NCBI GenBank assembly: GCA_951799425.1
Contig: OX637403.1
Span: 24,084,811-24,148,810 of the forward strand
Length of the DNA stretch: 64,000 bases
Reading direction: 5' to 3'
Source of the DNA: Ilex aquifolium
Taxonomy: Eukaryota > Streptophyta > Magnoliopsida > Aquifoliales > Aquifoliaceae
The notes under the pieces were generated by a model, which worked only from the letters and a program-made list of their open reading frames with translations, did no database searches and was not told the DNA's origin. Positions 9,521-44,153 of this stretch are shown in pieces. Made by a program: the position numbers and the translations under genes. Position 1 is the first letter of the stretch, and each line of letters begins with the position of its first letter.

Positions 9521-9525
9521 TAAAC

Positions 9526-10480: not shown

Positions 10481-11000
10481 GAACTGAATAGTTCAGCGCG
10501 AGCTACGTGGCTCATATTATGAGCTGAAAAGTTCAGTGTGAGCTGCTTGGCTCAAGTTATGAACTGAATAGTTCATCGTGAGTTGTGTGGCTCAAGTTAT
10601 GAACTGAAGAGTTCATCGTGAGCTGCTTGACTCAAGTTGTGAACTGAAGAGTTCATCGTGAGCTGCGTGGCTCAAGTTCTGAACTGAAGAGTTCATCGTG
10701 AGCTGCGTGGCTCAAGTTATGAACTGAATAGTTCATCGTGAGTTGCTTGGCTTAAGTTATGAACTGAATAGTTCATCGTGAGCTGCGTGACTCAAGTTAT
10801 GAACTGAATAGTTCATCGTGAGCTGCGTGGCTCAAGTTATGAACTGAATAGTTCATCGTGAGCTACGTGACTCAAGTTATGAACTGAAGAGTTCATCGTG
10901 AGCTGCTTGGCTCAAGTTATGAACTGAATAGTTCATCGTGAGCTGCGTGGCTCAAGTTATGAACTGAAGAGTTCATCATGAGCTGCTTGGCTCAAGTTAT
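10481..11000. repeat. Thirteen tandem 40-bp units, each with two hairpins
   Basis: Units start at exactly 10481 plus multiples of 40 and run to 11000. Each contains two imperfect palindromes, GAACTGAATAGTTC and GAGCTGCGTGGCTC. Units differ mainly inside the loops (GAAT/GAAG, GCGT/GCTT), while the stems are largely kept. Older, more diverged versions extend left to about 10290. The array lies between the truncated gag and the 3' LTR of retrotransposon 1. The 40-bp period is not a multiple of three, so the array is not coding. Confidence 0.9.
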
Positions 11001-11203
11001 GAACTGAAGAGCTCATCTTGAATTTATGAGCTGAAGAGCTCATCGGATGTTTATGAGCTGAAGAGCTCATCTTGAGTTCATGAGCTGAAGAGCTCATCTT
11101 CAATTTATGAGCTGAAGAGCTCATCTTGAGTTTATGAGCTGAAGAGCTCATCTTGAATTTATGAGCTGAAGAGCTCATCGGATGTTCATGAGCTGAAGAG
11201 CTC
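11001..11203. repeat. Eight tandem 27-bp hairpin units
   Basis: Units start at 11001, 11028, 11055 and so on to 11190. Each has the palindrome GAGCTGAAGAGCTC (5-bp stem, GAAG loop) and a 13-bp AT-rich linker. On the minus strand the 27-bp period stays in frame and reads MSSSAHKFK-like nonapeptides. The same hairpin is the core of the 54-bp array in retrotransposon 2 (30272-30722). Confidence 0.9.
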
Positions 11204-12430
11204 GTCTCGTTCTCTGACATTTTCCCTTCTCTTGGGGGAGCGATCCCTGTCTCTTCTTGGGGACCTATCTCGTCCTCTTTCTTTCCTAGGACTTCGATCC
11301 CTCTTATTTTTTTCCTTCACTTTTTCCTTCTGTGAGGATGAGCTCCCTACCTTTGAGAGAAGGGCTTCCTCGCCATTAATATACTTTTCTGCTTTAGCCA
11401 GCACCTCTGCCATGCTTGTTTGCGGGTTCTTTGATATAGAAAATATCAAATCCTTCGACTGCACTCCTAATCCAGCAATGAAAGCAGTGATAACAAACTT
11501 CTCATCTGGAATTTCTACCTTCAGGGATTCTGAGTTGAACCTTTGGACATAAGACTGTAGGTTCTCGTTGGGTCCTTGTTTTACATTCAACAGGTGGTAG
11601 CTCGGATTTCGGTAGGTCCGAGCTCCTATGAAATGAGATACAAAAGTTATGGAGAGCTCTTTAAAGGATGAGATCGAGGCTGGTGGGAGCCTGTGAAACC
11701 AGGCTAGGGCAGAGCCTTTCAACGTGATGGCAAAGGCTCTGCAACGTACAGGATCCTGGTATCCATGTAGCTCCATCTGGTTCTTGTAAGTGTTGAGATG
11801 ATCTACGGGATCTTTCCTTCCGTCAAAGATCTCTATTTGTGGCATCCTGAACTTTGGTGGGAGAGGAAAGTGCAGCACTCCAGTGGTGAATGGGGACTCG
11901 GTCTGTTGTACTAGGGCGTCCATTGTAACCGGAGCCTTGCTCTTTATAGCCTCCTTCATGTGGCTGAGCTCTTGCTGGATGTCCTTGAAGCGTTGCTCTC
12001 AATGCTGCTCTCTCCTGTCCTGCTGGTAAGGGAAAAAATCGTCCCTCTCGCCCCCATCGTTCTGACTTTGCATTTCTTCGTTGTGGCCATTCCTAGGGGG
12101 TAGGTAGGGAACATGCCCCCTGGTTTGGCTGCTTTCTTCTCATTCGTTAACCTCTCTAAGGGGGTCCAAGTGTCGTTGTTCCCTATGAGGGGGATTATTC
12201 TGGCCTTCTTGGGCCGGTCGTGCCTCCTGTAGGCGTTGTATGAGCTTCGATAGCTCTGCGTTTTCCCTTAGCAAACGTTGGTTGACGAGGCGAAGGGCCT
12301 CCATCTCGTTGTTAATGGGGGAATTAGTCTCTTAGACGTTCTCGGGTTGTCTGCCGTTGGTGGCTTCCTGCTGATCCTGCGTTCGTGGTGGGTTTGTTTG
12401 GCTTCTGCTCATGTTTCGAGTTGATACCAT
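11186..12430 (-). pseudogene. Broken gag of retrotransposon 1
   Basis: The frame starts at ATG 12428-12430 (MVSTRNMSR) and keeps the retrotransposon gag core (GSALAWFHRLPPASI, then the arginine/serine-rich SPRKERGRDRSP). Two stops interrupt it in the same frame: TAA at 12332-12334 (codon 33) and TGA at 11999-12001. At about 11205 the frame runs straight into the 27-bp hairpin array, which is where the fuller relative continues into pol. The element therefore lost the whole pol region at this junction. It cannot make a normal Gag. Confidence 0.9.
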
Positions 12431-12474
12431 CAGTCACTGAGAGATCAGCTTATTTGTAACAGGAACAGTCGTTT

Positions 12475-12492
12475 CCACAGACGGCGCCAAAC
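12475..12492 (-). other. Primer-binding site of retrotransposon 1
   Basis: Directly inside the right LTR the minus strand reads GTTTGGCGCCGTCTGTGG. The GGCGCC core is typical of primer-binding sites in plant Tat/Athila-group elements. The same sequence lies at 36320-36337 in retrotransposon 2. I did not assign the tRNA. Confidence 0.7.
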
Positions 12493-13063
12493 TGATGGTG
12501 TTATTTCACGTGAATGAGCAACGAGTTAGGGTATAATTGCTAGGAACAGATCTGAGCTACAAGGCCCGTGAATTGGTGCTTGAATGCTCTAGTTGTCCGA
12601 GGTGTGGTGTGTGTAACACGTAAAAATATAATGGTTCACCGGCTTGAGAGCTCGGCTAGTCCACTCTTCAATGGAGTCTCTTGCTCCTAGAATCTATATT
12701 CATCTAGAAAATGTTTTACAAGATGCCTTTGATGCCAGTAGGGTTCTCTGCCTCTTGATTGAGGCGTTGTACAGTATTTATAGTATAATTCCTATCTCTA
12801 AGGGATTTTCACCGAGATCTTTGCCCTTCATCCGTGGGATCTTCCTTAATTTTGGGAGAGGATCTTGGTTAGTTGAGAGTTTTGTGCCTTAATTATAGTT
12901 TTCCATTGCTTTGAGGATGCCATTCACTAGCCAGCTGTTTCCGTTTCAATTTCCCGTTTGTTTTCTTTGAGTAGAGCTTGAGGTCTGGATTGCGGAGCCC
13001 TGGTTACTGTGTCTGACCTCCTTGTCTGACCTTATACTTAGAGCTTTTTTCTAGGTATCATCA
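12493..13063 (-). repeat. LTR of retrotransposon 1 (5' LTR in element sense)
   Basis: It is 571 bp, from TGATGGTG just after the primer-binding site to TATCATCA, followed by the TAAAC target duplication. This copy should carry the element promoter (minus strand). Confidence 0.93.
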
Positions 13064-24197: not shown

Positions 24198-24202
24198 CAC
24201 AT

Positions 24203-24899
24203 TGATGGTGTAAACCTGCGCGAACGAGCTATGGGACTGGATTATGTGGTATGAACGATCTGTGTGGGACTTGATATGACATCTGAGCTACAAGGCTCGT
24301 GTATCGATGGACTAATGCTCTAATTAACCGACATGTAGTGCGTGTGATACAGTAGAAGTATAGTGGTTCACCGGCTAATGAGCTCGGCTAGTCCACTCTC
24401 TAATGGAGACTCTTGCTCCTTTCTCTTTATTGATGAATTGAATGTGTTACAGTAGAATACTCAGGGTATATCCCGGTTTCCAGTCGCTCTCTCCCTTTTT
24501 ATAGTCTCATACTTACCTCTAATTCGGAATTATCTCCTTTATCGAAGGGATTGCTCCCTATCTTCATCTATAATCTCGGAGTTACCTAGACTTCCTATAG
24601 CTGGCTCCAAATGGCTTGGTTTTTGTCTTTTATCATGGGATCCTCTCCTTGATTGTAGGAGAGGATCCTTGCTGGTAATGTGTTACACGCCTTGGATTAG
24701 CTGAATTCCCACTATGAATATATCTGCTGTCATCTTACCCCCCTTTCGTCATTTCTCAGTCTGCGTCCTTAACTGGGAGTACAAGTGCTGACTGGTCGAG
24801 CTCAGACCGTGGCTGGATGGGCTCGGCTTACCTTCCCTGACCTCCAGAGCCGAGCTCTTTTCCTGAGCTCGTGTCTGGGGTTTATTTTAAGTATCATCA
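24203..24899 (-). repeat. LTR of retrotransposon 2 (3' LTR in element sense)
   Basis: It is 697 bp, TGATGGTGTAAACCTGCG to AAGTATCATCA. It is followed inward by the complement of the polypurine tract (TTGCCCCCCAGCCC). It shares short segments with the LTR of retrotransposon 1, for example TAGTGGTTCACCGGCT and GAGCTCGGCTAGTCCACTC. Confidence 0.94.
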
Positions 24900-25550
24900 G
24901 TTGCCCCCCAGCCCTTGCCTTAGGATCTTAGGCAGGGGCTGACCTGTATTCCAGTCAAAGTTAAATATGCACGTGGCTAGCACGTGACTTGAAGATTTTT
25001 GACGGTTTGCAGAAATCATGACTCTCCTCGATTCCCGCGCATGTCTCAGCCCACGTTCCCCAAGCTTTAAATGCCCAAAACGGCTACCTGAACCGTTTCT
25101 ACACACTATTCATCTTCTTCTCTACTTCTTCGTCTCTGTTCTTCTTGCGATTTCAGACGATCTTACTCAAACTTTCCTGATTTCTTGTTTGAAAACGAAT
25201 CCCCAGCCTTCGTGTTGAAGACTCGCATCGCCTCCTTCCTCTGATTTCGCTCCCAGCTTCCGTTTGCCGCTATTCCTGGGTTAGGTACGTCCTCTGCCCC
25301 TTTCGCTTCCTCCTCTGCTCTGGATCCCTCGAATTCGAGGTGGTTGTTACACTTTTGGGCCTTTCGGTTTTTTTACTTTTGGAATCGTGACCATTGCCTA
25401 GCCCCACTTCCTCACTTCGTAGATTGGAGCTCTATAGTCCACATTCTTGCCGTTGGGAGTTACTGTGCTGACCCAAGGGTCATTAGAGAGAGTTTGATCA
25501 GTGTTCCTCCTCTATATCGTTCCTTTAATCTTCCTTTTTCCTGCCCAATC

Positions 25551-28218
25551 ATGTCTGCCTCCTCCAGTGCTACTCGTTCCTCTGTCTCCTTACTGGGCAA
25601 TAGGTCTGAGGATACTGATTTAGGAGACGTAGGTGACGAAATTGATAACTTTCCTGGTGTGGAGGCTGTAGAAATCGAGGTGGGTACCGAGGAGCCTCCC
25701 TCTACTTCTTCTCCCATGCCCCCTAGACCTGATAAAGGCAAGGTCAAGGTGAGTGGAGTCGGGGTTGAAGAGAAGACCTCATATTTGGGATCGGCCTTCA
25801 GGCATGCCGAGTCTGTGGGCTACAGCAAAGAGGCCCCTGAGCTAATGAAGACTTATAAAGTTCGGTATGGTTTTCCTCCTGGGGTCGAACCCTGGTGCCT
25901 AGATAAATCCGTCTATTATGTAGAACAAGTACGCAATAGGGTCTGCTTCTTTCTTGCCGCCTTTGATAACGGTCTTCGCTTTCCTCTGCACCCCTTCATC
26001 AAGGTTGTTCTGCAACATTTTCATGTGTGCCCTTCCCAGATTTCCCCCAACTTCTATGGCGTCATGGTTGGTTTTCTGGTCATCTTCAGGAAGCATAAAC
26101 TAGGGGTTCCTAGCATTTCCTTGTTTCTAGAATTCTTTAACGTTAAACCGACCTCTAAAGGCTTCTTGTATGCCTCTAAGCGTGCCAACGTTAGGCAGCT
26201 TATTTCTAACATTCCGTCCTCTCATAAGCACTGGAAGGAGCATTTCTTTTTTGTCGGGGGCACCAATTGGGAGTATAATCCTGCTGATAAGACTGATACT
26301 CTCGGTATCCCTACGGCTTGGACTGAACCAGAAAACTTGCGTGAGTCTTTTCTTGAGTCGACTGAGCTCTGGTCTGTAACTTATAGGCCTCTTGCCTTTT
26401 TCTTACTTGCACACTTTCTTCTTTTCAGGTGATCGTTTTGAGCTCAGCCCTGAAGATAAGAAGGTGCTAGCGAAGTTGGAGAAGATCAAGCCGGAGAAGT
26501 ACGCCGACCTGATTGAGTCAAGAAATTTGGTGCAGCTAGGTCTGAGCCCTCCCGTGGTGACTTTAGCGATTCCATTATCTGTTTTAGGGGCTGACGAAGG
26601 TAATTTCATCGTCCATTTTTTTCCTCTTCTCTTCATCATCTCTCCTTCTCTTCTTTTTCTCCTTACATCTCCTCGTTCCTTTTAGACCTTCCAGGTCCTT
26701 CCACCATGAAGTCTGTTCCAGGAGAGCTTCAGGCTAAGATTGAGGAACTGATGAAGAGTGGCAAGTCTGGCAAACGCAAGGCTCGGGTCAGTTCTGGGAG
26801 TGGTCCAAGCACCCGAGCTAAAGTCCCCAAATTGGACGTGCCTTCAACCCCCTCTGCTACTAAAGAACTGATTCCTATCAAGGGACCGCCTTCCTCATCC
26901 GTCACCCCTCCAACTGCAGTTATCTCTTCTCCTCCAGTGGCCCATCCTGGGTTGGAGCCTGCTCTAGTGGGAGATCAGACTTCCCCTTCCTCCTCTGAGG
27001 TTGAGAAAGCTTTGGGAGTGATCCCTGATCTTCAACCCAAGAAGTTCTCATACACTACTTCTGGGAAGGTGGTCGAGAAAGAGAGAAAATCTGAGGAAGA
27101 AGATGAGGATTCTTTTTTTGACAATATGGATCTTGCTGCAGGAGCTCTTTCGTCTATTTTTTCTGAGACTGACGTCTTGAAGGCTGCTTCTATGCCCCTT
27201 GAAGAGTCCATATCTTCTGCTCTCCAGGGAGCAGCTGCTGTAAGTGCCAGTACTTTTCCCTTCTTACATACTTTTATTTCGTGATTTCACATAATTCACC
27301 GACCCTTCTTTGTACCTTCAGGCTGCCCTCCACACGAGAGGTCTGCTGCACCGGATTCGGTCTCAAGAGAGTTCTTTTAAGGTTCTAAAGACGTATAAGG
27401 TCAGGGTTTTTGAATTATCTCTTGAGAATGAAGACCTCAAGGCTCAAAATGGAGACCTCAGGACTCAGGCGGAGAGCCTTAAGGAGCAAACGGCGAAGCA
27501 AGCCTCCGACCTCAAACATACATTAACCGTCAAGGTTAGAGCTGAGGAAGGAGAAAAGAAAGCTCGGGATGAGCTAAGGTTAGTTAAGGAAGATCTGCAG
27601 CATAAGGTCGAGGCGTGGTCCAAAGCTACCCAGGAGGCTTTTGATGCCAAGAAAGAGCTCATCCGGGTTAATCAAGATTATCTCGCCCTCAACGAGGCAA
27701 ACGGCAAGCTCTGCGAGGAGCTTGAGGAACAGAAAGACTTGGTCAATCAGCGGGATAATGAGATCGCCGAGCTAAGAGATGAGGCCACTACTTTGTGGGC
27801 TACTGGGTGGCTTGCCTTTAGGCGCAAGGCTATGAAGGCTTTCCCTGATCTCGACTTCAACTTCTCAATTCCTACTGAAGAAGAGATGGAGGAGTCTGGT
27901 TCTGAAAATGAGGCGGAAGCCTCTGCCCCCTCAGCCACAGCCTTGAGTCAAGACGCACCTGCCTCTGGGACCTCTGGTGCTCTTGCCGTAATTTTCGAAC
28001 TTCCAACCGCAACCCCTGAGCTCCGTACTGCATCCCCTGCTGCTCCTATTACCGCACCTCTTTCAGCCGACTCAATGACTGAGGCCCATGCTCAAAATCC
28101 AGATTTAACGGAAGCAGGGACCCAAGGCATTACCGGAAGCTCTTCCCTTGTTTCTGTTGCTGCTGGCTCATCCACCGAGCTGCGAGACCCTTCAATTGCT
28201 CCCTCTCTAGATACTTAG
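25551..28218 (+). CDS. Antisense extra gene (aORF1) of the Tat element, 'putative gypsy-type transposon' domain
   Basis: It is encoded against gag-pol. Four exons join in frame through GT-AG introns: 25551-26340, 26429-26599, 26686-27239 and 27322-28218. They give 803 residues with no stop. Donors are good (GTGAGT, GTAATT, GTAAGT). The start is the ATG of MSASSSATR; the frame is open further upstream but without a better ATG. Exon 1 carries a domain typical of plant proteins labelled gypsy-type transposon/transposase_28 (FFNVKPTSKGFLYASK, then SSHKHWKEHFFFVGG, roughly residues 80-255). The middle is low-complexity Ser/Pro/Lys. Exon 4 has a long coiled coil (LSLENEDLKAQNGDLR, then LRLVKEDLQHK) and a Ser/Ala-rich acidic tail. 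The role is unknown. A protein-binding or nuclear role is inference. It is probably transcribed from a promoter at 24900-25500, next to the 3' LTR. Confidence 0.85.
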
Positions 28219-29027
28219 AACTTTTACTGTGCTTATGTAACTTTTGTTTTCCTTTGTACTTGAACTTGTTGTTTTGGAATATAAATTTCGTAGGGCGTTT
28301 CCTGAATTTTGCCTTGAATCGTGATATGTACTGTGTTGTGATTTGAGACATGAGCTAGATGGTTTTGCCATTTTCCTTTCTTCTCCTTGCACGGTTTTGC
28401 CATTTTCTTTTCTTCTCCTTGCACTCACTCCCCTTGCCCCCTTTTGCTTTGAGGGGTGCTGTGCCCTTCTTGAAGCAAAATTGCTAGATTTGAAGAGTAT
28501 AAAAGACTTGGTGTTGTGTTCAATGGCTTCTTCTGAGCTGTTGAGCTCGACAGTTGGTATCTTAGGGATTCCTATCCTTTCCTTCTTCGTTCAGAGACGC
28601 ACAACTTGATATTCGCGAGCTAGTGTGTTCCCTCTGAGCTACATGGCTCGAGTTTGTGAACTTAGGAATCCTTGCCGAGCTATATAGCTCTTTCTGTGAC
28701 CTAGGAAGCTCTACAAATTTCATTGCTTCTCTTTTCTGATCTTTTTCCTGTGTTTTCTCTTATCCCCCTTGCTTTGAGGAGTGTTCCAAACCTTCTTCAA
28801 GCAAGACCACGGACCTTCTTAGCTGCTAAACTCTTTTGATGAACCGAGGGACCCATCAGGAACTTTTCCCTTCTGATGTGAGCAAGGCTCTTGGAACTGT
28901 AGGTCTTCGAAGACTTGCTATATAGGTGCTCAGCTTTTGACCGAGCTGAGCTTAAACCCGAAGAATATTCTACTTGGGTGGGGCCAGAATTTTTCTTCGG
29001 TTGTTTTGAGTGCAACAGGAGGGTTAA
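28219..29027. other. Spacer between the two antisense genes, with decayed hairpin repeats
   Basis: 28600-28720 carries diverged copies of the palindromic words seen in the arrays (GAGCTACATGGCTC, GAGCTATATAGCTC). 28340-28430 has a short duplicated stretch (GGTTTTGCCATTTTC). The GCTTTGAGGGGTGCTGTGCC and GCTTTGAGGAGTGTTCC segments resemble the region beside the array in retrotransposon 1. There is no gene here. Confidence 0.55.
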
Positions 29028-29759
29028 TCTTGGTTGTTTCCTTTTGTTTCTGAGTTTCTATACTTCTTCGAGATCGAAAAAGATGATGCCCCCTGTTTCA
29101 GCTTCTTCCGTTGGAGAAATTTCAGATTACGGCCTTTGGTCTTCGGCTTCCCCTCCAATCCTGAAGGATGGTCCAGTCGCTTCTTTTTTGCTTCTGGGGA
29201 GTCCTAGCGGTCCCCTGAGGATCGTTGTCGTGAGGCTAGGATCCCACGGTCTTGGAAGAGCTTCTCTCACACTGGTAAGTTCTAGCCGACCTTTCTTGTC
29301 TGTAAGTTTTTCTTTAAATACATGTTCTTACTACCCTCTGATTGTTCAGGTCCCCCTGAGCTAGATGTGCCAGAGATGGTAAGTACTGATAAGTTGCTGC
29401 TCGTCGAGCCTAGGTCTTACTCTGAGTTAATGACGAGTGCAAACCTTTATCTGCTTGGGGCTGAGGCCACTGAATACGAATTTTCCTTTGTCCCTTATCC
29501 TTCCTGGACTTCCTTCTCTGACTCTGATGAGAAAGAGAGTTCTGGCGAGGATGGGGATACTGGTGCTAGCTCAAAGAGGCGTAGGAGGGAGGACTCTTTT
29601 TCCCCTGACTCTCTGTCCACTATCTTCCTCACCCCGGTAGGTCAGAAGCTTCTGGATTCTCTTTATAAGGCTCAGCAAGAAAGGGACGAGCTGAAGGAAG
29701 AGAATGCTCGTCTGAAGGAGGAAGTGGCTGAGTTGAAGTCAAAGACCAAGAAGAACTAG
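29028..29759 (+). pseudogene. Relic of a second antisense gene (aORF2) of the same family
   Basis: A frame from 29028 to 29274 joins, through a GTAAGT donor and an AG acceptor, to 29350-29759 in matching phase. The first exon reads SEFLYFFEIEKDDAPCF, then GFPSNPEGWSSRFFFASGE. This has the same layout as FFNVKP, then HWKEHFFFVGG, in aORF1, so it looks like a paralogue of the same domain. An in-frame TAG at 29205-29207 interrupts it, and a TAA at 29025-29027 closes it upstream, so the N-terminal part is missing or shifted. The second exon has acidic/Ser stretches, a basic KRRRRED patch and a C-terminal coiled coil (RDELKEENARLKEEVAELK). Confidence 0.6.
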
Positions 29760-29907
29760 GAGCTTTACCCCTTCTCTTGGGTGATGTAAAACTATGACTA
29801 TATTTTTCTGAATATCTGTAATATCTGATACTCTGAACACCCCATCTTTCCTTTTTAAGTATGCAACCCCCCCTTTTTTTTTATGAGCTCATTCCGGATT
29901 CTATAAG

Positions 29908-30088
29908 GTTGTTCCAACGCACCCTTCGTGCTCAGAACACGAACGTGGACGGAAAACAGAAGATCCCGTTTGCACTGCTCTTAGTTCTTGACTGACTGTT
30001 GTTTCAACGCCCCCTTCGTGCTCAGAACACGAACGTGGACGAAAAACAGAAGATCATGTTTGCACTGACCTCAATTTCTGACTGATTT
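29908..30088. repeat. Two tandem 90-bp units
   Basis: GTTCCAACGCACCCTTCGTG at 29911 recurs as GTTTCAACGCCCCCTTCGTG at 30001. The match extends through CTCAGAACACGAACGTGGAC and to about 30088. A second small tandem pair with a 39-bp period follows at 30172-30249 (GACTGTTGGTGTCTCCAAGA). Both lie between the antisense genes and the hairpin array of retrotransposon 2. Confidence 0.85.
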
Positions 30089-30271
30089 CGTAGCTGATCC
30101 CTGATGTATCAAACATATCGGGGTTTTCGAGTATGTAGGCTGGGCACAAGGATTGCCAGTTGTGGAGGAAAGACTGTTGGTGTCTCCAAGAAGAGGTCAA
30201 CTTTGAATTTGACTGTTGGTGTCTCCAAGAAGAGGTCAGCTTTGAATTTGACTGTTGGCCTAGGAGCTTGT

Positions 30272-30722
30272 ATGAGCTGAAGAGCTCATCTTGCACTTTA
30301 TAAGCCTAAAAGGTCATCGTTCGTCTATGAGCTGAAGAGCTCATCTTGTATTTATAAGCTTTGAAGCTTATCGTATATTTATGAGCTGAAGAGCTCATCT
30401 TGCATTTATAAGCTTTGAAGCTTATCGTATATTTATGAGCTGAAGAGCTCATCTTGTATTTATAAGCTTTGAAGCTTATCGTATATTTATGAGCTGAAGA
30501 GCTCATCTTGTATTTATAAGCTTTGAAGCTTATCGTATATTTATGAGCTGAAGAGCTCATCTTGCATTTATAAGCTTTGAAGCTTATCGTATATTTATGA
30601 GCTGAAGAGCTCATCTTGCATTTATAAGCTTTGAAGCTTATCGTATATTTATGAGCTGAAGAGCTCATCTTGTATTTATAAGCTTTGAAGCTTATCGTAT
30701 ATTTATGAGCTGAAGAGCTCAT
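30272..30722. repeat. Nine tandem 54-bp units with paired perfect hairpins
   Basis: Units start at 30272, 30327, 30381, then every 54 bp to 30705. Each full unit carries two perfect palindromes: ATGAGCTGAAGAGCTCAT (7-bp stem, GAAG loop) and ATAAGCTTTGAAGCTTAT (8-bp stem, TG loop). On the minus strand the period keeps frame and reads MSSSAHKYTISFKAYKYK. The frame (30306-30803) begins with an ATG directly after the pol stop codon and is in the same frame as pol. As RNA this would be about 17 consecutive stem-loops downstream of integrase. Confidence 0.92.
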
Positions 30723-30803
30723 GCCTTTACTTTGGAAGCCATTGAAGGGTGAATAAAAGACTTGCTCATTCTGATTTAAAAATAGCTCTATTACAAGTAA
30801 CAT

Positions 30804-31934
30804 TTACTGAAAAAACCTCTTAAGGTGCTCGGCATTCCACGAGTGAGGTAGGACCTTTCCCTCCTCTGTTTGCAATTCGTAATTCCCCGGTCGGATTATC
30901 CTTGACACGATATAGGGCCCTTCCCAGTTGGGCCCCAATTTTCCATGTGTGGGATCCTTTCTTGCAAGCAGAAGCCTCCTAAGTACCAAGTCTCCAGCCT
31001 TGAAGCTTCGGTGCCTTACCTTCCTGTCGTAATACCTTGCGGTTTTCCTTTGGTAAATGCGGACACGCTGCAGAGCTCTGTCCCTTTTTTCATCCAAGAG
31101 ATCGAGGTTTAACAGGAGAGATTCATCATTGTGCTCGGCATCTGCAAACTCCACCCTTGGTGATTGGAGCCCTATCTCCACAGGGGCTACTGCCTCGGTT
31201 CCAAAGGCCAGAGCAAAGGGGGTTTCCTGAGTTGCAGATCTGACGGTGGTCCGGTAGGCCCACAATACCTCAGGGATGTATTCCACCCACTTGCCTTTCA
31301 GGTTTTCTAGTTTGGTCTTCAAGGCTGACTTTATGGTTCTGATTGTGACCTCTGCCTGCCCATTGGATTGGGGATGTGCAGGAGCTGAGAAATAGTTCTT
31401 GATCCCAAGCTCGGCACAAAAGCTTTTGAATTTCGAATTGTCGAACTGTTTTCCGTTGTCAGACACGACCGCTCTGGGAACCCCAAACCTGCAAACTATC
31501 GATTTCCAAACGAAGTTTTGAACTTTTTGCTCAGTGATTGTTGCCAAAGGTTCGACCTCTGCCCATTTGGTGAAGTAATCCACTCCTATGATGGCAAACT
31601 TGCACTGTCCCACACCGGTGGGGAGGGGTCCCAGAATGTCCAAACCCCACTGCTGAAAAGGCCATGGGCTTACCACCGAGGTTAGGAGCTCGGGAGGACA
31701 GTGGGACGCATTGGCATGCTCCTGGCAAGTCTTGCATTTTCTTACTAAGTCGGTGGCACTTTTGAGCATGGTGGGCCAAAAATACCCTTGCCTTAGTACT
31801 TTTCCTGCCAAGGCCCGAGCCCCTATGTGATTGCCGCATATACCTTCGTGCACCTCTCTGAGTATATAATTGGCATCCTCATCTCCCACACATTTAAGGA
31901 GAGGCGTTGAGAATCCACGCTTGTACAGACCTCC
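30804..31934 (-). pseudogene. Integrase part of the Tat gag-pol polyprotein
   Basis: This segment continues the pol frame after an in-frame TAA at 31935-31937. It contains the HHCC zinc-binding region (HEGICGNHIGARALAGK, then CKTCQEH), the DDE core (LDILGP, VSDNGKQFDN, NGQAEV with the catalytic Glu) and a C-terminal GPYIVSR-type domain. It ends at TAA 30804-30806. Integrase inserts the cDNA into the host genome. The domain itself looks intact, but as the far end of a polyprotein it would not be made unless the stop is bypassed or another copy supplies it. Confidence 0.9.
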
Positions 31935-34900
31935 TTACAGCAAGGAAAATCTGGCTGACCTGGCCCTTAGCTTGGATGCCTCCTTAGCATCGCTTGGCAA
32001 AGTCCCATTCTGCAGGTACCCTATGATGGGGTCCATCCAGCTCGGCTGAGCTTCGACTGATAGCATGTCATCTTCTTCGATACTTACTGAAGGCTCTGGG
32101 AGGTGCTCCACTGGTATTAGTCTATCCAAGTCTTCTTGCGAGGCAGTTGCTAACCTTGCCAACGCATCTGCTCGTGAATTTTCTGCTCTGGGCACATGTC
32201 TGACCTTAACCTGCACAAATTTTTTCATTATTTCTCGTACCTTTTTGAGGTAAAGGACCATCTTTTCGCCTCTTGCTTCGTAGGTCTCTTCTATCTGTTT
32301 TACCATCAGTTGAGAGTCGCTGCAGATCTCCAGCTGCTCTGCTTCCATAGAACAAGCAAGATTAAGCCCAGCGATGACAGCTTCATATTCTGCCTCATTA
32401 TTTGAAGCTTTGAACCCAAATCTGAGGGCATATTCGACGTCTATTCCTTCTGGGGAGGTTAGGATCATTCCTGCACCGCTTCCCTGAGCATTGGCAGCTC
32501 CATCTACTGAAAGCTTCCATATAGGGAGGTCTGGTATTAAATCCGTGGTTTCCATAGGCGCTGCTGCTGTGAACTCTGCGATAAAATCTGCCAAAATTTG
32601 TCCTTTGATGGCAGTTCTTGGCTTATATCTGATATCAAACTCACTGAGCTCTATGGCCCATTTAACCAACCTCCCTGAAGACTCTGGCTTATGCAATACT
32701 TGTTTCAACGGCTGATCTGTTGGGACCTCGATAGTATGAGTCTGGAAATAAGGTCTAAGTCTTCTAGCTGTTGTAACCAGGGCTAGAACAAGTTTTTCCA
32801 TTTTTGGATATCTCTCATCTGCCCCCCTCAGAGCTCTGCTACAGTAATAGACTGGTTGCTGAGCTCTGTCTCGCTCCCTAACCAGCGCTGCGCTTGTCGA
32901 AAAATCTGAAACCGCCAGGTAGAGGGTGAGGACTTCCCCTTCTAAAGGGCTTACCAAAATGGGGGGTGAGCTCATATAGTTTTTTAGGGCTTCGAATGCT
33001 TCTTCACACTTGGCATCCCACTGGAATGCCTTCTTCAAGATCTGAAAAAATGGCTGGCATTTATCACTTGACCTAGACACGAAACGGCTCAGGGCAGCTA
33101 TCCTGCCTGTCAAGCGTTGCACCTCCCTTGTGTTGGATAGTGATTGCATCTCCAGCATTGCCCTAACCTTCTCTGGATTAGTTTCAATCCCTCTGCTGCT
33201 AACAATAAAACCCAGGAATTTTCCTGCCGAGACCCCAAACGCGCATTTCGCAGGGTTGAGCTTCATTTTGTATTCCTTCAGGATTCGGAACGATTCAGCT
33301 AAGTGCTCGATGTGGAGCTCTGCTTTTAATGACTTTACTAGCATATCATCGATGTAAACTTCCATGGACGTTCCTATCTGTTTTTGGAACATCCTATTTA
33401 CCAACCTCTGGTAAGTAGCTCCAGCGTTCTTCAACCCGAAGGGCATGACCTGGTAACAGTATGTTCCCTGTTCAGTTACGAAGGAGGTCTTCTCCTGATC
33501 GCTGGGATCCATCCTGATCTGGTTGTATCCTGAGAAGGTATCCATGAAGCTAAGGAGCTCATGCCCGGCTGTGGCGTCCACTATTAGGTCAATCCGAGGT
33601 AACGGAAAGCTATCCTTGGGGCATGCTCGGTTGAGATCAGTAAAGTCAATGCACAATCGCCACTTGCCATTAGTTTTCTTAACGAGAACCACATTCGCCA
33701 ACCAGGTAGGGTAGTCAACTTCCCTGATGGCCTTGGCATGGAGGAGTTTGCTGACCTCCTCATTAATTGCCTTTTGTCTTTCTGAGGCAAAACTCCTCAT
33801 CTTTTGTTTGACTGGTTTGCAAGCTGGATTCACGCTTAGCTTATGGGTAATGACCGAAGGATTAATTCCCTCCATGTCTTCCTGCTTCCAAGCAAACACT
33901 CCTACATTCTCTTTTAGGAACTGGATGAGGAGACCTTTGAGCTCTGCGTTTAGTCTGGAACCCACATAAACAAGGTGTTCTGGCTTTTCATCAAGCTGAA
34001 CTGGTTCCAGCTCTTCCGATGGCATTGGTCTTGTCTCCATTTCATCTCTCATGTCGAGTTCATCCAGTTGGATGTTCTCAACCTCCTTCTTTTTCACGGA
34101 AGCCATATAGCATTCCCTTGCTACCCGCTGGTCCCCTCGGACTACTCCGATTCCATTATCTGTAGGGAATTTCACGACTAAATGGTAGGCAGACGGGATT
34201 GCCTTCATGGAGTTAAGGGATGGCCTCCCAAGCAAGATGTTGTATGCAGAGGGTGCATCGACCACTAGGAACTTTACGGTGGTAGTGGCTTGGCAAGGTG
34301 GGTCCCCTAGGGTGAGCACGAGCTGGATCGAGCCTAGGGGGATCACCCTTTCTCCGGAGAATCCCAGCAAGTGAGTGCTTACTGGCTCAAGTCTTTCCCT
34401 CCCTATATCCATCTTGTCAAACGCAGGTGCGAAAATGATATCTGCCGAGCTCCCATTATCGATTAGAACACGATGAACAGTTCTATTAGCCACCACTGCT
34501 CGCACCACCAATGGGTCATCATGAGGGTACCGGCATCCCTCCAAATCAGCATCTGAAAAAGTGATAGCTGTATCTATGCGTGGTGTTTTGGATACAGCGT
34601 GCACTTCGAGAGCTTCTTCGGCTCTGATCCGGCGGAGGTGTGCTTTCCTGGCCGAGCTAGATTCTCCGCCTCCTGCGAACCCTCCTGATATTACTCTGAT
34701 CTCCCCTAGAGGCTGCTGGTGCGGTGCCGGTGCCTGCTGTCGGGGTGGTGGAGGTGGAAGAGCTCGGTTCTGGTTGTCATTGGCTACAAAACGACGTAAC
34801 TGACCTCGTTGGATCAAAAACTCGATCTCCTTCTTTAATTGAATGCAGTCATCAGTGTGGTGACCATGGTCTCTATGATAATCGCAGTACTTGGTGGGGT

Positions 34901-35114
34901 CTCTTTTGGCTGGATCTGCCTTCATCCGAGGTGGCCATCTTAAGAACTTCTCGTTTTGGACCTCATACAGAACTTGCGACACAGCGGCGGTGAGTGGGGT
35001 GAATCGCTGGGGTCCATATCTGGGCTGCAGTTCAGGCTGCATGGGGCCCAGGCGGTCTCTGACATTTCCTCTTCTCTTTGGCGAGCGGTCCCTATCTCTT
35101 CTGGGAGACCTCTC
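31935..35114 (-). pseudogene. Protease, reverse transcriptase and two RNase H domains of Tat gag-pol
   Basis: In one frame it shows: a zinc-knuckle-like motif CDYHRDHGHHTDDC; an aspartic protease with VLIDNGSSADI; a reverse transcriptase with VYIDDML at the active site; the RT-linked RNase H (LYLAVSDFSTSAALVRE, degenerate); and a second, archaeal-type RNase H (LSVDGAANAQGSGAGM, then EAEYEAVIAGL). The second RNase H places the element in the Tat lineage. The segment lies between TGA 35115-35117 and TAA 31935-31937. Its first ATG is at 35042, but in an intact copy it would be made as part of one gag-pol polyprotein. Confidence 0.92.
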
Positions 35115-36275
35115 TCACCCTTTTTCCTTCCTGGGACTCCTGTCTCTTCTCTTCTCTTCTTTTTCCTTCTCCTTTCGTGAGGATGTTCCTCCTACTTTAG
35201 AAAGGAGTGCCTCTTCGCCATTTATATACTTCTCTGCCTTGGCTAACACCTCAGCCATGCTTGCCTGAGGGTTCTTTGATATAGAGAACATCAAGTCCTT
35301 TGATTGCACTCCCAATCCTGCAATGAAAGCAGTTATGGCGAATTTTTCGTCTGGGACGTCTACCTTCAATGTCTCCGAGTTAAACCTTTGGACATAAGAC
35401 CTCAGGTTCTCTTGGGGACCCTGCTTCACGTTCAGCAGGTGGTAGCTTGGCTTTCTGTATATCCGGGCTCCTATAAAGTGGGATACGAAAGTTATGGAGA
35501 ACTCTTTAAAGGATGAGATCGAGGCTGGTGGGAGCCTGTGAAACCAGGTTAAGGCAGAGCCTTTTAATGTGATGGCAAAAGCTCTGCAACGCACGGGATC
35601 CTGGTATCCATGTAACTCCATCTGGTTTTTGTAAGTGTTGAGGTGATCTACGTGATCTTTCGTCCCATCAAAGACCTCTACTTGTGGCATCCTGAATTTT
35701 GGTGGAAGGGGAAAGTGTAGCACTCCAGTGGTAAATGGGGACTCGGTTTGCTGCACTAGGACGTCCATTGTAACCGGAGCCTTGTTCTTTACAGCCTCCT
35801 TCATGTGGCTGAGCTCTTCCTGGATGTCTTTGAAGCGTTGCTCCCAGTGGTGCTCTCTCCTGTCTTGCGGGTGAGGGAGAAAGTCGTCCCTCTCACCCCT
35901 ATCGTTCTGACTTTGCACCTTGTCGTTTTGGCCATTCCTAGGGGGTATGTAGGGAACATGTCCCCTGGTCTGGCTGCCTTCTCCTCCTTCACTGACCTCT
36001 CTAAGGGGGTCCCCGTGTCGTTGTTCCCTATGAGGGGGATCATTCTGGCCTTCTTGGGCCGGTCGTGCCTCCTGTGGGCGCTGTACGAGCCTTGATAGCT
36101 CTGCATTCTCCCTTAGTAAACGTTGGTTGATGAGGCGAAGGGCCTCCATCTCGTTATTAATGGGGGAATTAACCTCCGGGATATTCCCGGGTTGTCTGCC
36201 GTTGGTGGCTTCCTGCTGATCTTGCATTCGTGGTAGGTTTGTTTGACTTCTGCTCATATTTCGAGTTGTTACCAT
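35115..36275 (-). pseudogene. Gag of retrotransposon 2, cut by an in-frame TGA
   Basis: The ATG is at 36273-36275 (MVTTRNMSR), beside the primer-binding site. It makes 386 residues, then a TGA at 35115-35117. The middle has the retrotransposon gag core (GSALTWFHRLPPASI, SYHLLNVKQGPQENL). The end is basic (RRDRSPRKEKG). In retrotransposon 1 the same position reads an arginine CGA, so a C-to-T change made the stop. The frame downstream of the stop is the pol frame, so gag and pol were one polyprotein in the ancestor. Confidence 0.93.
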
Positions 36276-36319
36276 CAGTCACTGAGGAATCAGCTTACTT
36301 GTAACAGGAACAGTCGTTC

Positions 36320-36337
36320 CCACAGACGGCGCCAAAC
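36320..36337 (-). other. Primer-binding site of retrotransposon 2
   Basis: The minus strand reads GTTTGGCGCCGTCTGTGG directly after the 5' LTR, identical to the site in retrotransposon 1. It is where minus-strand cDNA synthesis would be primed by a host tRNA. Confidence 0.7.
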
Positions 36338-37034
36338 TGATGGTGTAAACCTGCGCAAATGAGCTATGGGACTGGATTATGTGGTATGAACGATCTGTGT
36401 GGGGCTTGATATGGCATCTGAGCTACAAGGCTCGTGTATCGATGGACGAATGCTCTAATTAACCGACATGTAGTGCGTGTGATACAGTAGAAGTATAGTG
36501 GTTCACCGGCTAATGAGCTCGGCTAGTCCACTCTCTAATGGAGACTCTTGCTCCTTTCTCTTTATTGATGAATTGAATGTGTTACAGTAGAATACTCAGG
36601 GTATATCCCGGTTTCCAGTCGCTCTCTCCCTTTTTATAGCCTCATACTTACCTCTAATTCGGAATTATCTCCTTTATCGAAGGGATTGCTCCCTATCTTC
36701 ATCTATAATCTCGGAGTTACCTAGACTTTCTATAGCTGGCTCCAAATGGCTTGGTTTTTGCCTTTTATCATGGGATCCTCTCCTTGATTGTAGGAGAGGA
36801 TCCTTGCTGGTAATGTGTTACACGCCTTGGATTAGCTGAATTCCCACTATGAATATATCTGCTGTCATCTTACCCCCCTTTCGTCATTTCTCAGTCTGCG
36901 TCCTCAACTGGGAGTACAAGTGCTGACTGGTCGAGCTCAGACCGTGGCTGGATGGGCTCGGCTTACCTTCCTTGACCTCCAGAGTCGAGCTCTTTTCCTG
37001 AGCTCGTGTCTGGGGTTTATTTTAAGTATCATCA
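36338..37034 (-). repeat. LTR of retrotransposon 2 (5' LTR in element sense)
   Basis: It is 697 bp with TG...CA ends, followed by the CACAT target duplication. It should hold the promoter for the gag-pol transcript on the minus strand. Confidence 0.94.
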
Positions 37035-37039
37035 CACAT

Positions 37040-38625: not shown

Positions 38626-38884
38626 ATTGTGGTTAGGCCGGTCAACAGATTGAGTTTTTGGATTTATCCGAATCCTACTTTAAAAGTCTAATTTGAATCC
38701 GATTCGACAATCTGACAAACTTTATTTTCATGGTCCATATCCAAATTCGATAACGATCTAAAAATCCAATATGAATAACTTAATTTAGGGAAAATTACGA
38801 GCTTTTGACCAATCCAGAGTAGTTTTGAAACAAAATTCCCAACTAAGAGTTGGTTTCAAAATAATTCCCAAACCCAGGCACTTT

Positions 38885-39055
38885 TTAAAAACGTCAGACG
38901 GATTGACGTTTTTACTTAAAGACGTCAAATGGACTGACGCGTTTAAGCAAAAAACGTCAGTCCGTTTGACGTTTTTAAGCCCAACAGATCAGATTACAAA
39001 TTTAAAAAAACGTCGACGTTTTAATTAAAAACGTCAGTTCGACTGACGTTTTTAA
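38885..39055. repeat. Cluster of ACGTC/GACGT motifs in the left arm of the Mutator-like element
   Basis: About ten copies of AAAAACGTC or its complement GACGTTTTT occur within 170 bp, often as facing pairs 10-25 bp apart, including AAAAACGTCGACGTTTT. The right arm carries the mirror cluster at about 42645-42812. Subterminal motif clusters are known transposase-binding sites in other DNA transposons; that role here is inference. Confidence 0.8.
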
Positions 39056-39129
39056 CTCAAACCATCCTTTGCCCTTTCCCTTATTTTCTCTTCTTCCCCC
39101 GTATTTGAGCCCTAGCTCAGTCAGGCGAC

Positions 39130-39440
39130 GCAGAACCACCACCACCATCCTGCTTCACCACGCAGCACCACCCACGACCACCCAGTGCTACCCACGACCT
39201 CCCAGTGCCACCCACAACGACCCAGCGCCACCCACTACCACCCTGTGCCACCACGACCACCCACTACCACCCAGCCCCAGCCACCACCATCGCAGCACCA
39301 CCCACCACCACGCAGCACCTCCCAGCGCCACCACGACCACCCAGCGTCACCCAGGACCACCCAGCCCCACCCACGACCATCCACGACCACACACCACCAC
39401 CCAACCATCGCAGCCCCAAATCCAAGCACCACCATCAGCC
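39130..39440. repeat. Degenerate CCACCCACGACCACCCAG minisatellite in the arm
   Basis: Repeats of CCACCCACGACCACCCAGTG with small variants give long open Pro/His/Thr-rich frames in all plus-strand frames. The right arm has the mirror copy (42252-42560). Because several frames are open at once, I do not call a protein. Confidence 0.75.
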
Positions 39441-39539
39441 TCCATTGCACCGTTGATTAGGTGAGAATTCTTTTTTTTTTTCTGAAAATTATTGAATTTA
39501 TATGAAATGATTGAAATATTGAAATTGTATGATAATATT

Positions 39540-40040
39540 TATTATTGAATTGAGTTGATTATTGATTGAATTGTTGAGTTGGGTATTGAGTATATTATTG
39601 AGTTGATTATTGAATTGAGTTATTGAGTTGGGTATTGAGTAGATTATTGAGTTGATTATTGAATTGAGTTGAGTTTTTGAGTTGATTATTGAATTGAGTT
39701 GAGTTTTTGAGTTGATTATTGAGTTGGGTATTGAGTAGATTTTAGATTTTAGATTTTAGATTATAGATTATTGATTATTGATTATCTCTTGATTATTGAG
39801 TTGGGTATTGAGTAGATTTTAGATTATTGATTATTGATTATCTCTTGATTATGGAGTTGGGTATTGAGTAGATTATTGATTATTGATTATAGATTATCTC
39901 TTGATTATTGAGTTGGGTATTGAGTAGATTATTGATTATTGATTATTGATTATTGAGTGGGGTATTAAGTAGATTATTGATTATTGAGTTGGGTATTGAG
40001 TAGATTATTGATTATTGATTATCTCTTGATTATTGAGTTG
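39540..40040. repeat. AT-rich minisatellite (TTGATTATTGA / GAGTTGGGTATTGAGTAG)
   Basis: Irregular repeats of ATTGATTATTGATTATC and TTATTGAGTTGGGTATTGAG run from the inner edge of the left arm. A shorter, diverged counterpart in reverse orientation lies at 41660-42150. It is non-coding. Confidence 0.85.
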
Positions 40041-40390
40041 ATTAGCAATCCCACCTATGTCCGACCACCACCATCGCAGCACCACTTAGTGAATACGTTT
40101 TGTTTGAGTGATAAGTTTATTTGGGTGTAACATTTTAGCCTTGGTGCTAGTGAGAGAGAGATTATTGAAATTATATGAAATTATTGTAATTTTGAAATTC
40201 TATGAAAATATTGATTATTGAATTGAGTTGATTATTGATTGTGTTATTGAGTTGGGTATTGAGTAGATTATTGATTGAAGTGGAAGTTGTACTACGAGGG
40301 GTTCTGCATTTTTGGGATGTTTCTATTTAAGTTCAATATCAAACATTAACCTCCTTTGGACATATAAGCATTTTGAATGTACTGATACAG

Positions 40391-40480
40391 GAGGGCAAAG
40401 GTGGAAAAGTGAAGAAGGTATTGCTGACAACTCCAGTGAGGCGATCAAGCCGAATCCGCAGCCGTGCGGTCATGTCTCCA
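40391..40480 (+). pseudogene. Exon-like fragment captured in the Mutator-like element
   Basis: After a good acceptor (ACTGATACAG) the frame reads GKGGKVKKVLLTTPVRRSS, then RIRSRAVMSP and a stop. This looks like the basic C-terminus of a nuclear protein. A 3'-UTR-like stretch follows. I do not recognise the parent gene. No other exon is present in the element, so it is best seen as a captured fragment. Confidence 0.4.
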
Positions 40481-41136
40481 TGATTTCTCAGCACCCTTGG
40501 ATTATCTTTCTTGAACGAAACAGCATCTTCGTTGTTTCATGATTTATTATCCCTCCCCCTTCCACTGAAACTAAAGATGGGGGGAGGGGGTAACTTCAGT
40601 TAATGTAATGGTAGCTGTTTGTAATCTGTAGGAACTTTAACTTAATCCAAATTTCAATCTACTAATTGCATTTCATTTGCTTCTCATAATTTGAAATCTC
40701 CAATCTCATTAGTCCTTTTATCATTCTTTTCCTTGTGGTTCTGTGTTTTTTTTTTTACTGGCTCAATTTGCACCGCGTTTCCTTTGGGATGATGTGATTC
40801 TCATTGCAGAGCTAAGCCATATTTGCTATAAGCCATATGGAGCTTTAGGAAATAATATCTCAATGAGCAATATGACCCTTTCGGTTTTTGTGGTGTAAAA
40901 CAAAGTTGAATTTAAGTGCTCTTTTAAATGATTTTAAGTGCTTCACAGAACAAGATGGTTCATCATTATCAAAACTTTTGAAAAAAATAAACAAAAAGGT
41001 GCTCCGTAGAACAAAAGGGATGAATTTTATAACTTCCCAGTACATGCACACAGATCATTCAAGCAGTGCTATATTTCACGCACACAGATCATTACAAGGA
41101 ATTCTTCTGAACTGATAATCATAGAACTTATGTACA

Positions 41137-41183
<47 letters not shown>

Positions 41184-44153
41184 GGTGGCAGTCATCTATA
41201 TTATATTTTTTCTTTCCTTTCTTTTGGGCGCCAAATTATCATGTATTTAGGTCAATACCCCTCATTCTTTTATTCTGGGATCAAAGGGGGCCTGCAACTA
41301 CTTGACGATGGCAATGAACTCTGAAGCTTCCCCTTTCTACTCGGAAAAGACGATGGCAATGAACTCTGAAGCTTTCTTGGATATAATGGGCTTGAGAAGA
41401 GTGTAGGACTTGTAGGCATCTAATCCACCTGCATAGCTCTTGCATGACTTCATTTTTCTTCTCTAAGGAACTTCTTTCTTTGCAACATCTTCCCTGTTTT
41501 GGACAAACTGAAAGCTAACACACAATGCAGATCAAAACTTGAAAATCTTGCTTGTATGCAAGCACACAACTTTATTGAAGTGAACCATTCTGTTTTTTTT
41601 GCGCTATTCACATAAATATTTACAAAATTTTCACATATTCTATTTAAATTGTTCTGCTCAAGCTCTCTGCATCAATAATCAACTCAATACCTCAATAATC
41701 AACGCAATACCTCAATAATCAACTCAATACCCCAAATCCAAGCACCACCACCATTGAAAAGAATCAGCTCAAATGCTTATGTCATAGAAAACACCCTAGC
41801 AATAACAGAAAACATATTTGCGCAATTGCTTATCATAAAAAATTTCCACCAACAGTCAATCTCTTTTTTTGAAAAAATCAAAACAAACCATCAAATCCTA
41901 ATACAAATAGACAGCACAACATGAGAATAAAAATGAACTCATCAAATCACACAAAAACTACGAAAAAACCAATCAAAGATCTAGCAAAGCAAACCCAATT
42001 GAACCCAATATCCAACTCAAAAACACAATTAATAATCAACTCTACTCAATACCCAACTCAATAACACACATGTATTCTACCTTCAATAATCAACCCAATA
42101 ATATACTCAATACCCAACTCAATAATTCAATCAATAATCAACTCAATTCAATAATAAATATTATCATACAATTTCAATATTTCAATCATTTCATATAAAT
42201 TCAATAATTTTCAGAAAAAAAAAAAAGAATTCTCACCTAATCAACGGTGCAATGGAGGCTGATGGTGGTGCTTGGATTTGGGGCTGCGATGGTTGGGTGG
42301 TGGTGTGTGGTCGTGGGTGGGGCTGGGTGGTCCTGGGTGACGCTGGGTGGTCGTGGTGGCGCTGGGAGGTGCTGCGTGGTGGTGGGTGGTGCTGCGATGG
42401 TGGTGGCTGGGGCTGGGTGGTAGTGGGTGGTCGTGGTGGCGCAGGGTGATCGTGGGTGGCGCTGGGTCGTTGTGGGTGGCACTGGGAGGTCGTGGGTAGC
42501 ACTGGGTGGTCGTGGGTGGCGCTGGGTGGTGCTGCGTGGTGAAGCAGGATGGTGGTGGTGGTTCTGCGTCGCCTGACTGAGCTAGGGCTCAAATACGGGG
42601 GAAGAAGAGAAAATAAGGGAAAGGGCAAAGGATGGTTTGAGTTAAAAACGTCAGTCGAACTGACGTTTTTAATCAAAACGTCGACGTTTTTTTAAATTTG
42701 TAATCTGATCTGTTGGGCTTAAAAACGTCAAACGGACTGACGTTTTTTGCTTAAACGCGTCAGTCCATTTGACGTCTTTAAGTAAAAACGTCAATCCGTC
42801 TAACGTTTTTAAAAAGTGCTTGGGTTTGGGAATTATTTTGAAACCAACTCTTAGTCGGGAATTTTGTTTCAAAACTACTCTGGATTGGTCAAAAGCTCGA
42901 AAATTACACCCAGTTCCCAGTCACTTAATCACCTAGACCCCCTGACATTTAAAATATTACACACAAACCTCTTAAAATTTGTACGCGCATTACACATAAA
43001 CTCTTGCCGTTAAATGACCGTTAGTATATCCGTTAGTAAATTATATTTAAACCCCTAAAATTTTAAACGTATAATACTTAGACCCTTTAAGTTTAAAATA
43101 TTATATTTATACAAAAAATAATCCAATTAAATATAGAATATCAAATATTTTAAATTTTATAACTAAAATTCATATTCTATTATGTCATTTATTGAAATAA
43201 AATCAGAAATAAAAATTTATTTTTTTCATAAAAAAAATCATAATTAGTATTGTTGATGACAAAACTTAGACGACCTCCACGTCAGTTTGGACTTGGACTA
43301 AATAGATTTTTCACCTTGGGTCAATTTTTTTATCATCAAGTACGAACATATGAAATAAGTTTAATCAACACATTTACATGTTTTATTATATCATATATTG
43401 ACATAAAAATCAAACAAAATCCTAATTTTTTGAGAAAAAATAATAATCAGTATAAATATATTAAAGAAAAAAAATAGTAATTAGTATAAATATATTAAAG
43501 AACTCAATTTAACACTCATTTGTATATAATTATACTGTCTATTGGAATAAAACAAAAAAATCTAACAAAAGGTCAAAGTGTATTGAATACAATATTTTAT
43601 ATTTTTAATTGAGGTAATTTAGTTGTTTAATAAATTTCGTTTTAAACTTGAGAGGTCTAAATGTTACACGTCTATAAACTTTAGAGGGTTTAGGTATTAT
43701 TTACTAATGGATATGCTGAAGGACATTAATGATAGGGGTTTAAATGTTATGCACGTACAAACTTTAGGGGTCTATATATAATATTTCAAATGTTAGGGGT
43801 CTAAGTGATTAAGTAACAAACCTTTGGGGGTTTTGATGTAATTTTTCCTTCAATATTTAACTAAATTTTAACAAATTACATATAAATTTTACCTGAATTT
43901 CTTCAAATAATCTCTTACTTTCTTTAATATTTATATACAAATATATAAATATTTCGAATCAGCTCATAATCAGATCGGATATAGGTATATCTAAATTCGA
44001 ATCCGTGAAATATAAGATATCGAATTCGAATTTGGGTTCGGATAATGGATAAAAAAAAATATCAATCCATATCTAGGTAATCAGATTTAGACTTGGGTCA
44101 GGTCGGGTCAGATTATGATCAAAATTCAACCTATTGATTGGCCTAATTGTGAT

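Follow-up and report, generated by a model that had tools for sequence, protein, structure and literature searches.

HBZ of HTLV-1, an antisense nuclear accessory gene read from the 3' side of its retroelement, encodes a zipper protein and has a spliced form in which the AUG lies in a small first exon. Among plant retrotransposons, the closest described genes are the antisense TRP28 ORFs of Retand elements, which were reported in a survey that also mentions HBZ (Vicient 2025, PMC11963269). According to the survey, such ORFs are present in 97% of Retand clusters and are nearly ubiquitous in recently active Retand elements; DNA binding was predicted for TRP28 and a role in regulation was suggested (PMC11963269). 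ORFs of at least 600 bp were counted there, and the main text does not contain the words intron, start codon or non-AUG (PMC11963269). In another study, Transposase_28 was found in 23% of Retand elements (PMC6317226). A further antisense accessory gene is gene23 of Grande, which, as the work of Gomez-Orte 2013 is told in PMC7264820, has its own promoter and encodes a nuclear protein; the same paper calls for antisense and spliced transcripts to be examined. In the open-licence literature, no description of such a gene with a non-AUG start or with conserved introns was found. For a human cellular gene, PTEN, CUG- and AUU-initiated extensions were predicted from coding constraint on the leader and proven experimentally (PMC4892431).

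The antisense gene analyzed in this work, aORF1, is located in a window of 64,000 nt, the whole stretch of DNA that was studied, to which all coordinates refer; genome-wide searches covered an 800-Mb genome of about 20 chromosome-size contigs. It shares with the Retand ORFs the position between pol and the 3' LTR, the orientation, the domain, a tandem array by pol, and the sizes, but goes beyond what the survey describes in having conserved introns, a conserved extension that lacks an ATG, and a second TRP28 gene per element, and in that selection was measured (PMC11963269). Like gene23 of Grande, it is an antisense accessory gene at the same place in its element, a likeness of description; the promoter and the nuclear protein are features of Grande and predictions for aORF1 (PMC7264820). 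The likeness to HBZ is also one of description: nuclear location is a prediction for aORF1, which has a TRP28 domain and a likely coiled coil where HBZ has a zipper. With PTEN it has in common an in-frame constraint on the leader and a conserved near-cognate codon, the evidence here being that of sequence comparison only (PMC4892431). The class is already known; the conservation of the introns, the ATG-less extension, and the measurement of selection are the additions made here, for one group of subfamilies. The best explanation of the whole, to which we give a probability of roughly two in three, is that aORF1 would be a spliced Retand antisense TRP28 gene with CUG and AUG starts, encoding a nuclear regulator that acts in trans, accompanied by a paralogue, aORF2, and seen here in a young copy.

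Lineage of the element and state of gag-pol

The gene forms part of a Retand/Tat-type LTR retrotransposon at 24203-37034 that begins with TG, ends with CA, and is flanked on both sides by the 5-bp target site duplication CACAT (24198-24202 and 37035-37039). Read in the sense of gag-pol, which is on the minus strand, the 3' LTR is at 24203..24899 and the 5' LTR at 36338..37034; they are 98.4% identical over 697 nt, with 11 differences. Pfam models place along gag-pol (30807..36278, minus strand), in this order, gag, reverse transcriptase (RVT_1), RNase H, a second RNase H, and integrase; RVT_3 at 870-988 follows RT_RNaseH at 730-826, and the integrase is on the next piece. No Pfam model for a protease matched in gag-pol. 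A second RNase H between the first one and the integrase marks the Ogre/Retand part of Tat (PMC6317226), to which the domain order therefore points, and an antisense ORF with PF04195, found here between pol and the 3' LTR, points to Retand. The proposal of the initial annotation that the gene is one of the antisense extra genes of the Tat lineage is supported. With an LTR of 697 bp, an internal part of 11438 bp, and about 5900 bp between pol and the 3' LTR, the element also lies inside the ranges reported for Retand, namely, 315-1194, 7380-12869, and 2933-6566 bp, respectively (PMC11963269). On these sequence features, it is assigned to the Retand lineage of Tat, Ty3/gypsy. A tandem array of 54-nt repeats, seen in the sequence at 30271..30722, adjoins pol, and a 90-bp tandem duplication and a 39-nt repeat occupy 29908-30258, between aORF2 and this array.

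The two stops noted earlier in gag-pol were both confirmed and located relative to the domains: the first lies between the gag domain and the reverse transcriptase piece and the second between the second RNase H and the integrase. They divide the frame into 387, 1059, and 376 residues, which together with the two stop positions make 1824. In a genome-wide search with the gag of the window as query, a single uninterrupted frame of 1824 amino acids was found in 5 of the 107 copies scored out of 11308 candidates. The idea that the family normally carries the two stops was consequently rejected, and they are regarded as lesions. The 387-residue frame was also met in one other copy of the same search, so that the window copy may share its first stop with another. 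In a separate locus, L063 (C5:9349700-9355300), whose antisense part is that of L054, gag-pol could not be aligned at the expected place, and the locus was left out of the gag-pol dN/dS; this copy may lack gag-pol or carry an insertion.

Gene model, selection and integrity of aORF1

aORF1 is composed of four plus-strand exons, opposite to gag-pol. Exon 1 (25551..26340, from the first ATG) contains the TRP28 domain and is supported by its open frame, a Pfam match, and conservation among copies; exon 2 (26429..26599) is supported by its open frame and by splice sites conserved in 21 copies and in a subfamily of about 70% DNA identity; and exon 3 (26686..27239), with a basic KRK stretch, and exon 4 (27322..28218), with a likely coiled coil and the stop codon, are supported by open frames and dN/dS. 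Rejoined in this work, they keep the phase and yield 803 codons and a stop, as the initial annotation had stated. Since 312 GT-AG combinations are also open when all combinations near the junctions are tried, openness alone is weak evidence, and the four-exon model was chosen among the open combinations because its splice sites are conserved across copies. In the window copy and 20 others (L039-L058), GT is kept at donors 1, 2, and 3 in 21, 21, and 21 of 21 copies, and AG at acceptors 1, 2, and 3 in 20, 21, and 19. In the subfamily of about 70% identity, for which five of 30 fetched loci were used, the donors are kept in 5, 4, and 3 of the five loci and the acceptors in 5, 5, and 5; donor 2 is displaced there by a few bases. 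The other 19 copies have in common gaps of -9 and -3 in exon 3 and one of -11 in intron 3. The transposon domain claimed for the first exon was identified as PF04195 at residues 131-199 (7.4e-10; 39.4 bits against a curated cut-off of 26.2). As for the long coiled coil claimed for the last exon, its presence is likely but weakly supported: 0 windows of exon 4 passed a strict rule, and with a less strict rule 22 of 500 shuffled sequences scored equally well.

The 20 copies compared with the window belong to 40 that were picked by likeness to exon 1 (20 of the 39 non-window ones), which is why the block of exons 1 and 2 seems more alike than the rest. Over 24203-30250 these copies are mosaics in which blocks that are roughly 65-90% identical to the window alternate with blocks at 94-99%, as judged by bins; common breakpoints lie, for instance, near 27550 (L040, L041, L049, L053, L054, and L058), with a return near 28450 in L040, L041, and L058. 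Such blocks are what template switching between subfamilies would be expected to leave. Because the copies are mosaics, comparisons exon by exon are comparisons of blocks of different age.

With gapped codons excluded, the window and the 19 more distant copies gave dN/dS values of 0.14-0.32 for exon 1 (0-0.14 for the TRP28 domain), of 0.27-0.40 for exon 3, and, where dS exceeded 0.2, of 0.18-0.42 for exon 4; exon 2 on its own gave 0.30-1.58 against the 19 copies, with changes too few to be informative. In the closest pair, the window and L039, dN/dS reached 0.60 for exon 1 and 0.90 for exon 3. For gag-pol, the overall dN/dS was 0.10-0.15 in three distant copies (0.20-0.29 for gag alone) and 0.35 in the closest copy. 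Given these ranges, aORF1 is constrained about as strongly as gag and less than pol. The initial annotation had proposed computing dN/dS across copies, with neutral values counting against its reading; the values are not neutral, and aORF1 is a real protein gene under purifying selection, with dN/dS of about 0.15-0.4. It has been considered for antisense ORFs of retrotransposons that the RNA itself could be the product (PMC7264820), and an RNA from aORF1, which is opposite to the genomic RNA, could pair with the latter and feed small RNAs, the protein being irrelevant. This is improbable here, because a dN/dS well below 1 in most exons and the bias toward third codon positions imply that the protein is required.

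Selection on the gene is to be distinguished from selection on this copy. Among the 21 copies, changes in aORF1 that are private to one copy comprised 170 nonsynonymous and 108 synonymous changes and 12 stops, where 195, 86, and 9.7 would be expected in the absence of selection; shared changes comprised 156, 160, and 1 (p 0.005 for the difference between private and shared). This count omits the final codons of exon 4 and every codon for which fewer than 15 rows were free of gaps. Private changes show a mild nonsynonymous deficit and no deficit of stops, and come closer to neutrality than the shared ones without fully reaching it. Selection acts mainly while the lineage propagates, with little on single copies. 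That the open frame is a product of chance or youth and functionless in the element is hardly credible: the 312 open splice combinations, the undepleted private stops, and an intactness of the window copy that needs no selection are all compatible with it, but it does not account for the difference between shared and private changes, for the dN/dS values and splice sites conserved across subfamilies, or for the purifying selection observed between subfamilies.

The initial annotation attributed the integrity of aORF1 in this copy either to youth or to selection separate from that on gag-pol. From the divergence of the LTRs and the proportion of private changes observed to be stops, about 0.8 stops would be expected in aORF1 since insertion and 1.8 in gag-pol, and 0 and 2 were observed; the probability of no stop in aORF1 is 0.45 on this basis and 0.60 when calculated from susceptible codons (38 against 149 in gag-pol). 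Selection as a requirement for the intact frame was therefore rejected. Youth suffices, the copy being a young insertion because its LTRs differ at just 11 of 697 sites, and the second part of the attribution is unsupported. Just 8 of the 21 copies are free of a premature stop in aORF1.

A takeover of this aORF1 by the host, with selection in place apart from gag-pol, appears very improbable. Of the three main coding regions of the window copy, gag-pol, aORF1, and aORF2, aORF1 alone is open, and in the 23 copies common to the lists for both regions there were 9 stops in gag against 1 in exon 1, which would suit a takeover. However, this difference is not significant once susceptible codons are allowed for (P 0.085), the nearest copy, L039, likewise combines an open aORF1 with a broken gag-pol, and the similarity of the LTRs speaks for a young insertion. 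The unpaired counts, with a stop in exon 1 in 10 of 116 copies (of 8452 candidates) and in gag in 36 of 107 (of 11308), come from lists that are capped and ranked differently, and were not used as a test.

The conserved segment upstream of the first ATG

Coding constraint extends upstream of the first ATG. In the comparison with L043, substitutions at 25351-25550 fall 6, 4, and 25 times on the first, second, and third codon positions of the aORF1 frame, and the bias has p values of 5e-6 to 0.004 in six comparisons, which are mutually dependent. The signal becomes clear at about 25351 and is missing above 25318; in the stretch between, the differing sites are too few to tell. The start would lie somewhere within 25320-25350, at or just after a conserved CTG. 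The 77 codons from this CTG to the first ATG (25320..25550, plus strand), which are in frame with aORF1, show a dN/dS of 0.02-0.10 at a dS of 0.25-1.65 in seven pairs, hand-picked among eight sequences. No ATG is present at 25320-25550 in any of the 21 copies or at 25100-25319 in 20 of them, and L047 is the only one of the 21 with a stop in the extension. The motifs were found in 48 of 51 loci examined, and in all 48 the ATG comes exactly 231 nt after the codon at 25320, whereas the distance upstream from this codon to a conserved AGGTACGT varies between 28, 29, 35, and 36 nt; the frame is thus fixed from the CTG onward and not upstream of it.

The codon itself is CTG in 47 of these 48 loci. 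Its downstream motif, GATCCCTCGANTTCGAGGTGG, occurs at 732 places in the genome and is preceded by CTG at 699 of them, by TTG at 11, by ATG at 3, by GTG at 0, and by other codons at the remaining 19. A purine is found at -3 in 694 of the 699 CTG copies and a pyrimidine in 5, G at +4 is set by the search pattern, and the codon before the CTG varies among subfamilies (GCT, GTT, and ACT). A conserved CTG in a strong start context, together with upstream constraint without an ATG, suggests a CUG-initiated form of the protein of 880 residues. The introns and the upstream constraint correct the gene model on which work on expression or localization would draw: a construct made from the first ATG would lack a strongly conserved part. 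Splicing would escape surveys limited to long unspliced ORFs, and the extension would escape any model that takes an ATG as its start.

The evidence comes from a single genome and spans three subfamilies. In four distant TRP28 copies of the same genome (L064-L067), nothing corresponding to the extension was found, so that it is taken as a trait of this group of subfamilies and not of all TRP28 genes. These four match aORF1 in the domain only, and three of them have an in-frame ATG far upstream of it. AF2 models of exon 1 with the extension and of exon 1 of aORF2 had pLDDT values of 34.6 and 49.1, too poor for use.

As in HBZ, the upstream codons could instead be translated from an AUG in a small first exon, spliced from an upstream region or from the LTR. 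An AG at 25338-25339, preceded by a pyrimidine-rich stretch and conserved in no fewer than 9 of 10 sequences, could serve as acceptor; when combined with an ATG at 25041 and a donor at 25055, it gives an open lead of 75 amino acids in 9 of 10 sequences. It is a single weak splicing model; the leader itself, at 25100-25550, is ATG-free in 20 of 21 copies as described above. The donor at 25055 (CAC/GTTCCC) is poor by eye, but two of the three accepted aORF1 donors score just 6 of 9, so modest donors can work. A search from 24600 on for conserved sets of ATG, donor, and acceptor left a single ATG-donor pair, 25041 with 25055, with three acceptors. Under a donor rule of at least 7 of 9 matches, the only donors within 24198-25550 of the window are those at 24984 and 25285; as this rule misses the two accepted donors that score 6, weaker upstream donors may exist. 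Joining 25285 to 25340 places a stop 2-31 codons upstream with no ATG in between in 25 distinct readable sequences, the 26th, L047, having its stop inside the extension. Furthermore, the start-like context of the CTG would be idle under a spliced AUG exon. An HBZ-like first exon is hence considered unlikely, although it retains some weight, and initiation at the CUG is preferred. The leader also contains a donor-like AG/GTACGT at 25283-25290 on the plus strand (GTACGT at 25285..25290) that is unchanged in 10 of 10 aligned sequences from three subfamilies; it sits 28-36 nt before the CTG, and no fitting partner that carries an AUG was found.

A second antisense TRP28 gene and the proposed mechanism

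Relative to the window, four copies that were examined closely are longer by 602-641 bp at 29036-29045 (by 603 bp in L039). The additional stretch contains the start of a second plus-strand gene, aORF2, which the window copy has lost by a deletion of 603 bp. Its exon 1 remnant (29046..29274) lacks the start and most of the domain and by eye carries a premature stop; exon 2 (29350..29759), with a basic KRRRR stretch and a leucine-rich end, would follow an intron at 29275-29349 that was also placed by eye. In 14 of the 20 other copies, exon 1 is open to its conserved end as judged by eye (for example, L039:5172-5786). aORF2 carries a PF04195 domain of its own (6e-10) and is 36% identical to aORF1 over 144 amino acids. 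Seven distant pairs of other copies, likewise hand-picked among eight sequences, gave dN/dS values of 0.07-0.10 for exon 1 and 0.12-0.15 for exon 2, and a near pair gave 0.50 and 0.37. By these sequence comparisons, related copies are predicted to encode a second, paralogous antisense TRP28 protein, which is broken in the window copy.

According to the preferred explanation, an antisense transcript would arise from a promoter of its own, like the one described for gene23 of Grande (PMC7264820), between the 3' LTR and about 25100, where a TATA-like stretch is seen by eye near 25060-25100, and would be spliced three times. Ribosomes would start in part at the CUG at 25320, giving 880 residues, and by leaky scanning at the AUG at 25551, giving 803. 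The protein would enter the nucleus through its basic stretches, might dimerize or oligomerize through the weakly supported coiled coil of exon 4, and would regulate the element family in trans. Action in trans on the family would explain selection at the level of the lineage with little upkeep of single copies. Two protein forms from one spliced mRNA, the longer one from the conserved CUG with a CUG-only extension of 77 residues that ranks with the most strictly conserved parts of the protein, and another antisense TRP28 protein in tandem would together amount to a two-gene antisense program of a plant retrotransposon, a reading that we favor by a little over even odds.

Elsewhere in the window, a short LTR element at 9522-12788 has repeats at 9522-9821 and 12489-12788 that are 99% identical, and a minisatellite with a spacing of 40 nt lies inside it at 10290-11129. 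A 300-nt piece of this element is 78% like 35053-35352, the gag end of the main element, and its repeats are 61-76% like those at 30243-30776; it is possibly a deleted relative of the main element. A large inverted repeat at 38792-42905, with arms of about 0.8 kb that are 85-99% complementary in four pieces and 2.5-3.1 kb between them, looks like a terminal-inverted-repeat element or a foldback.
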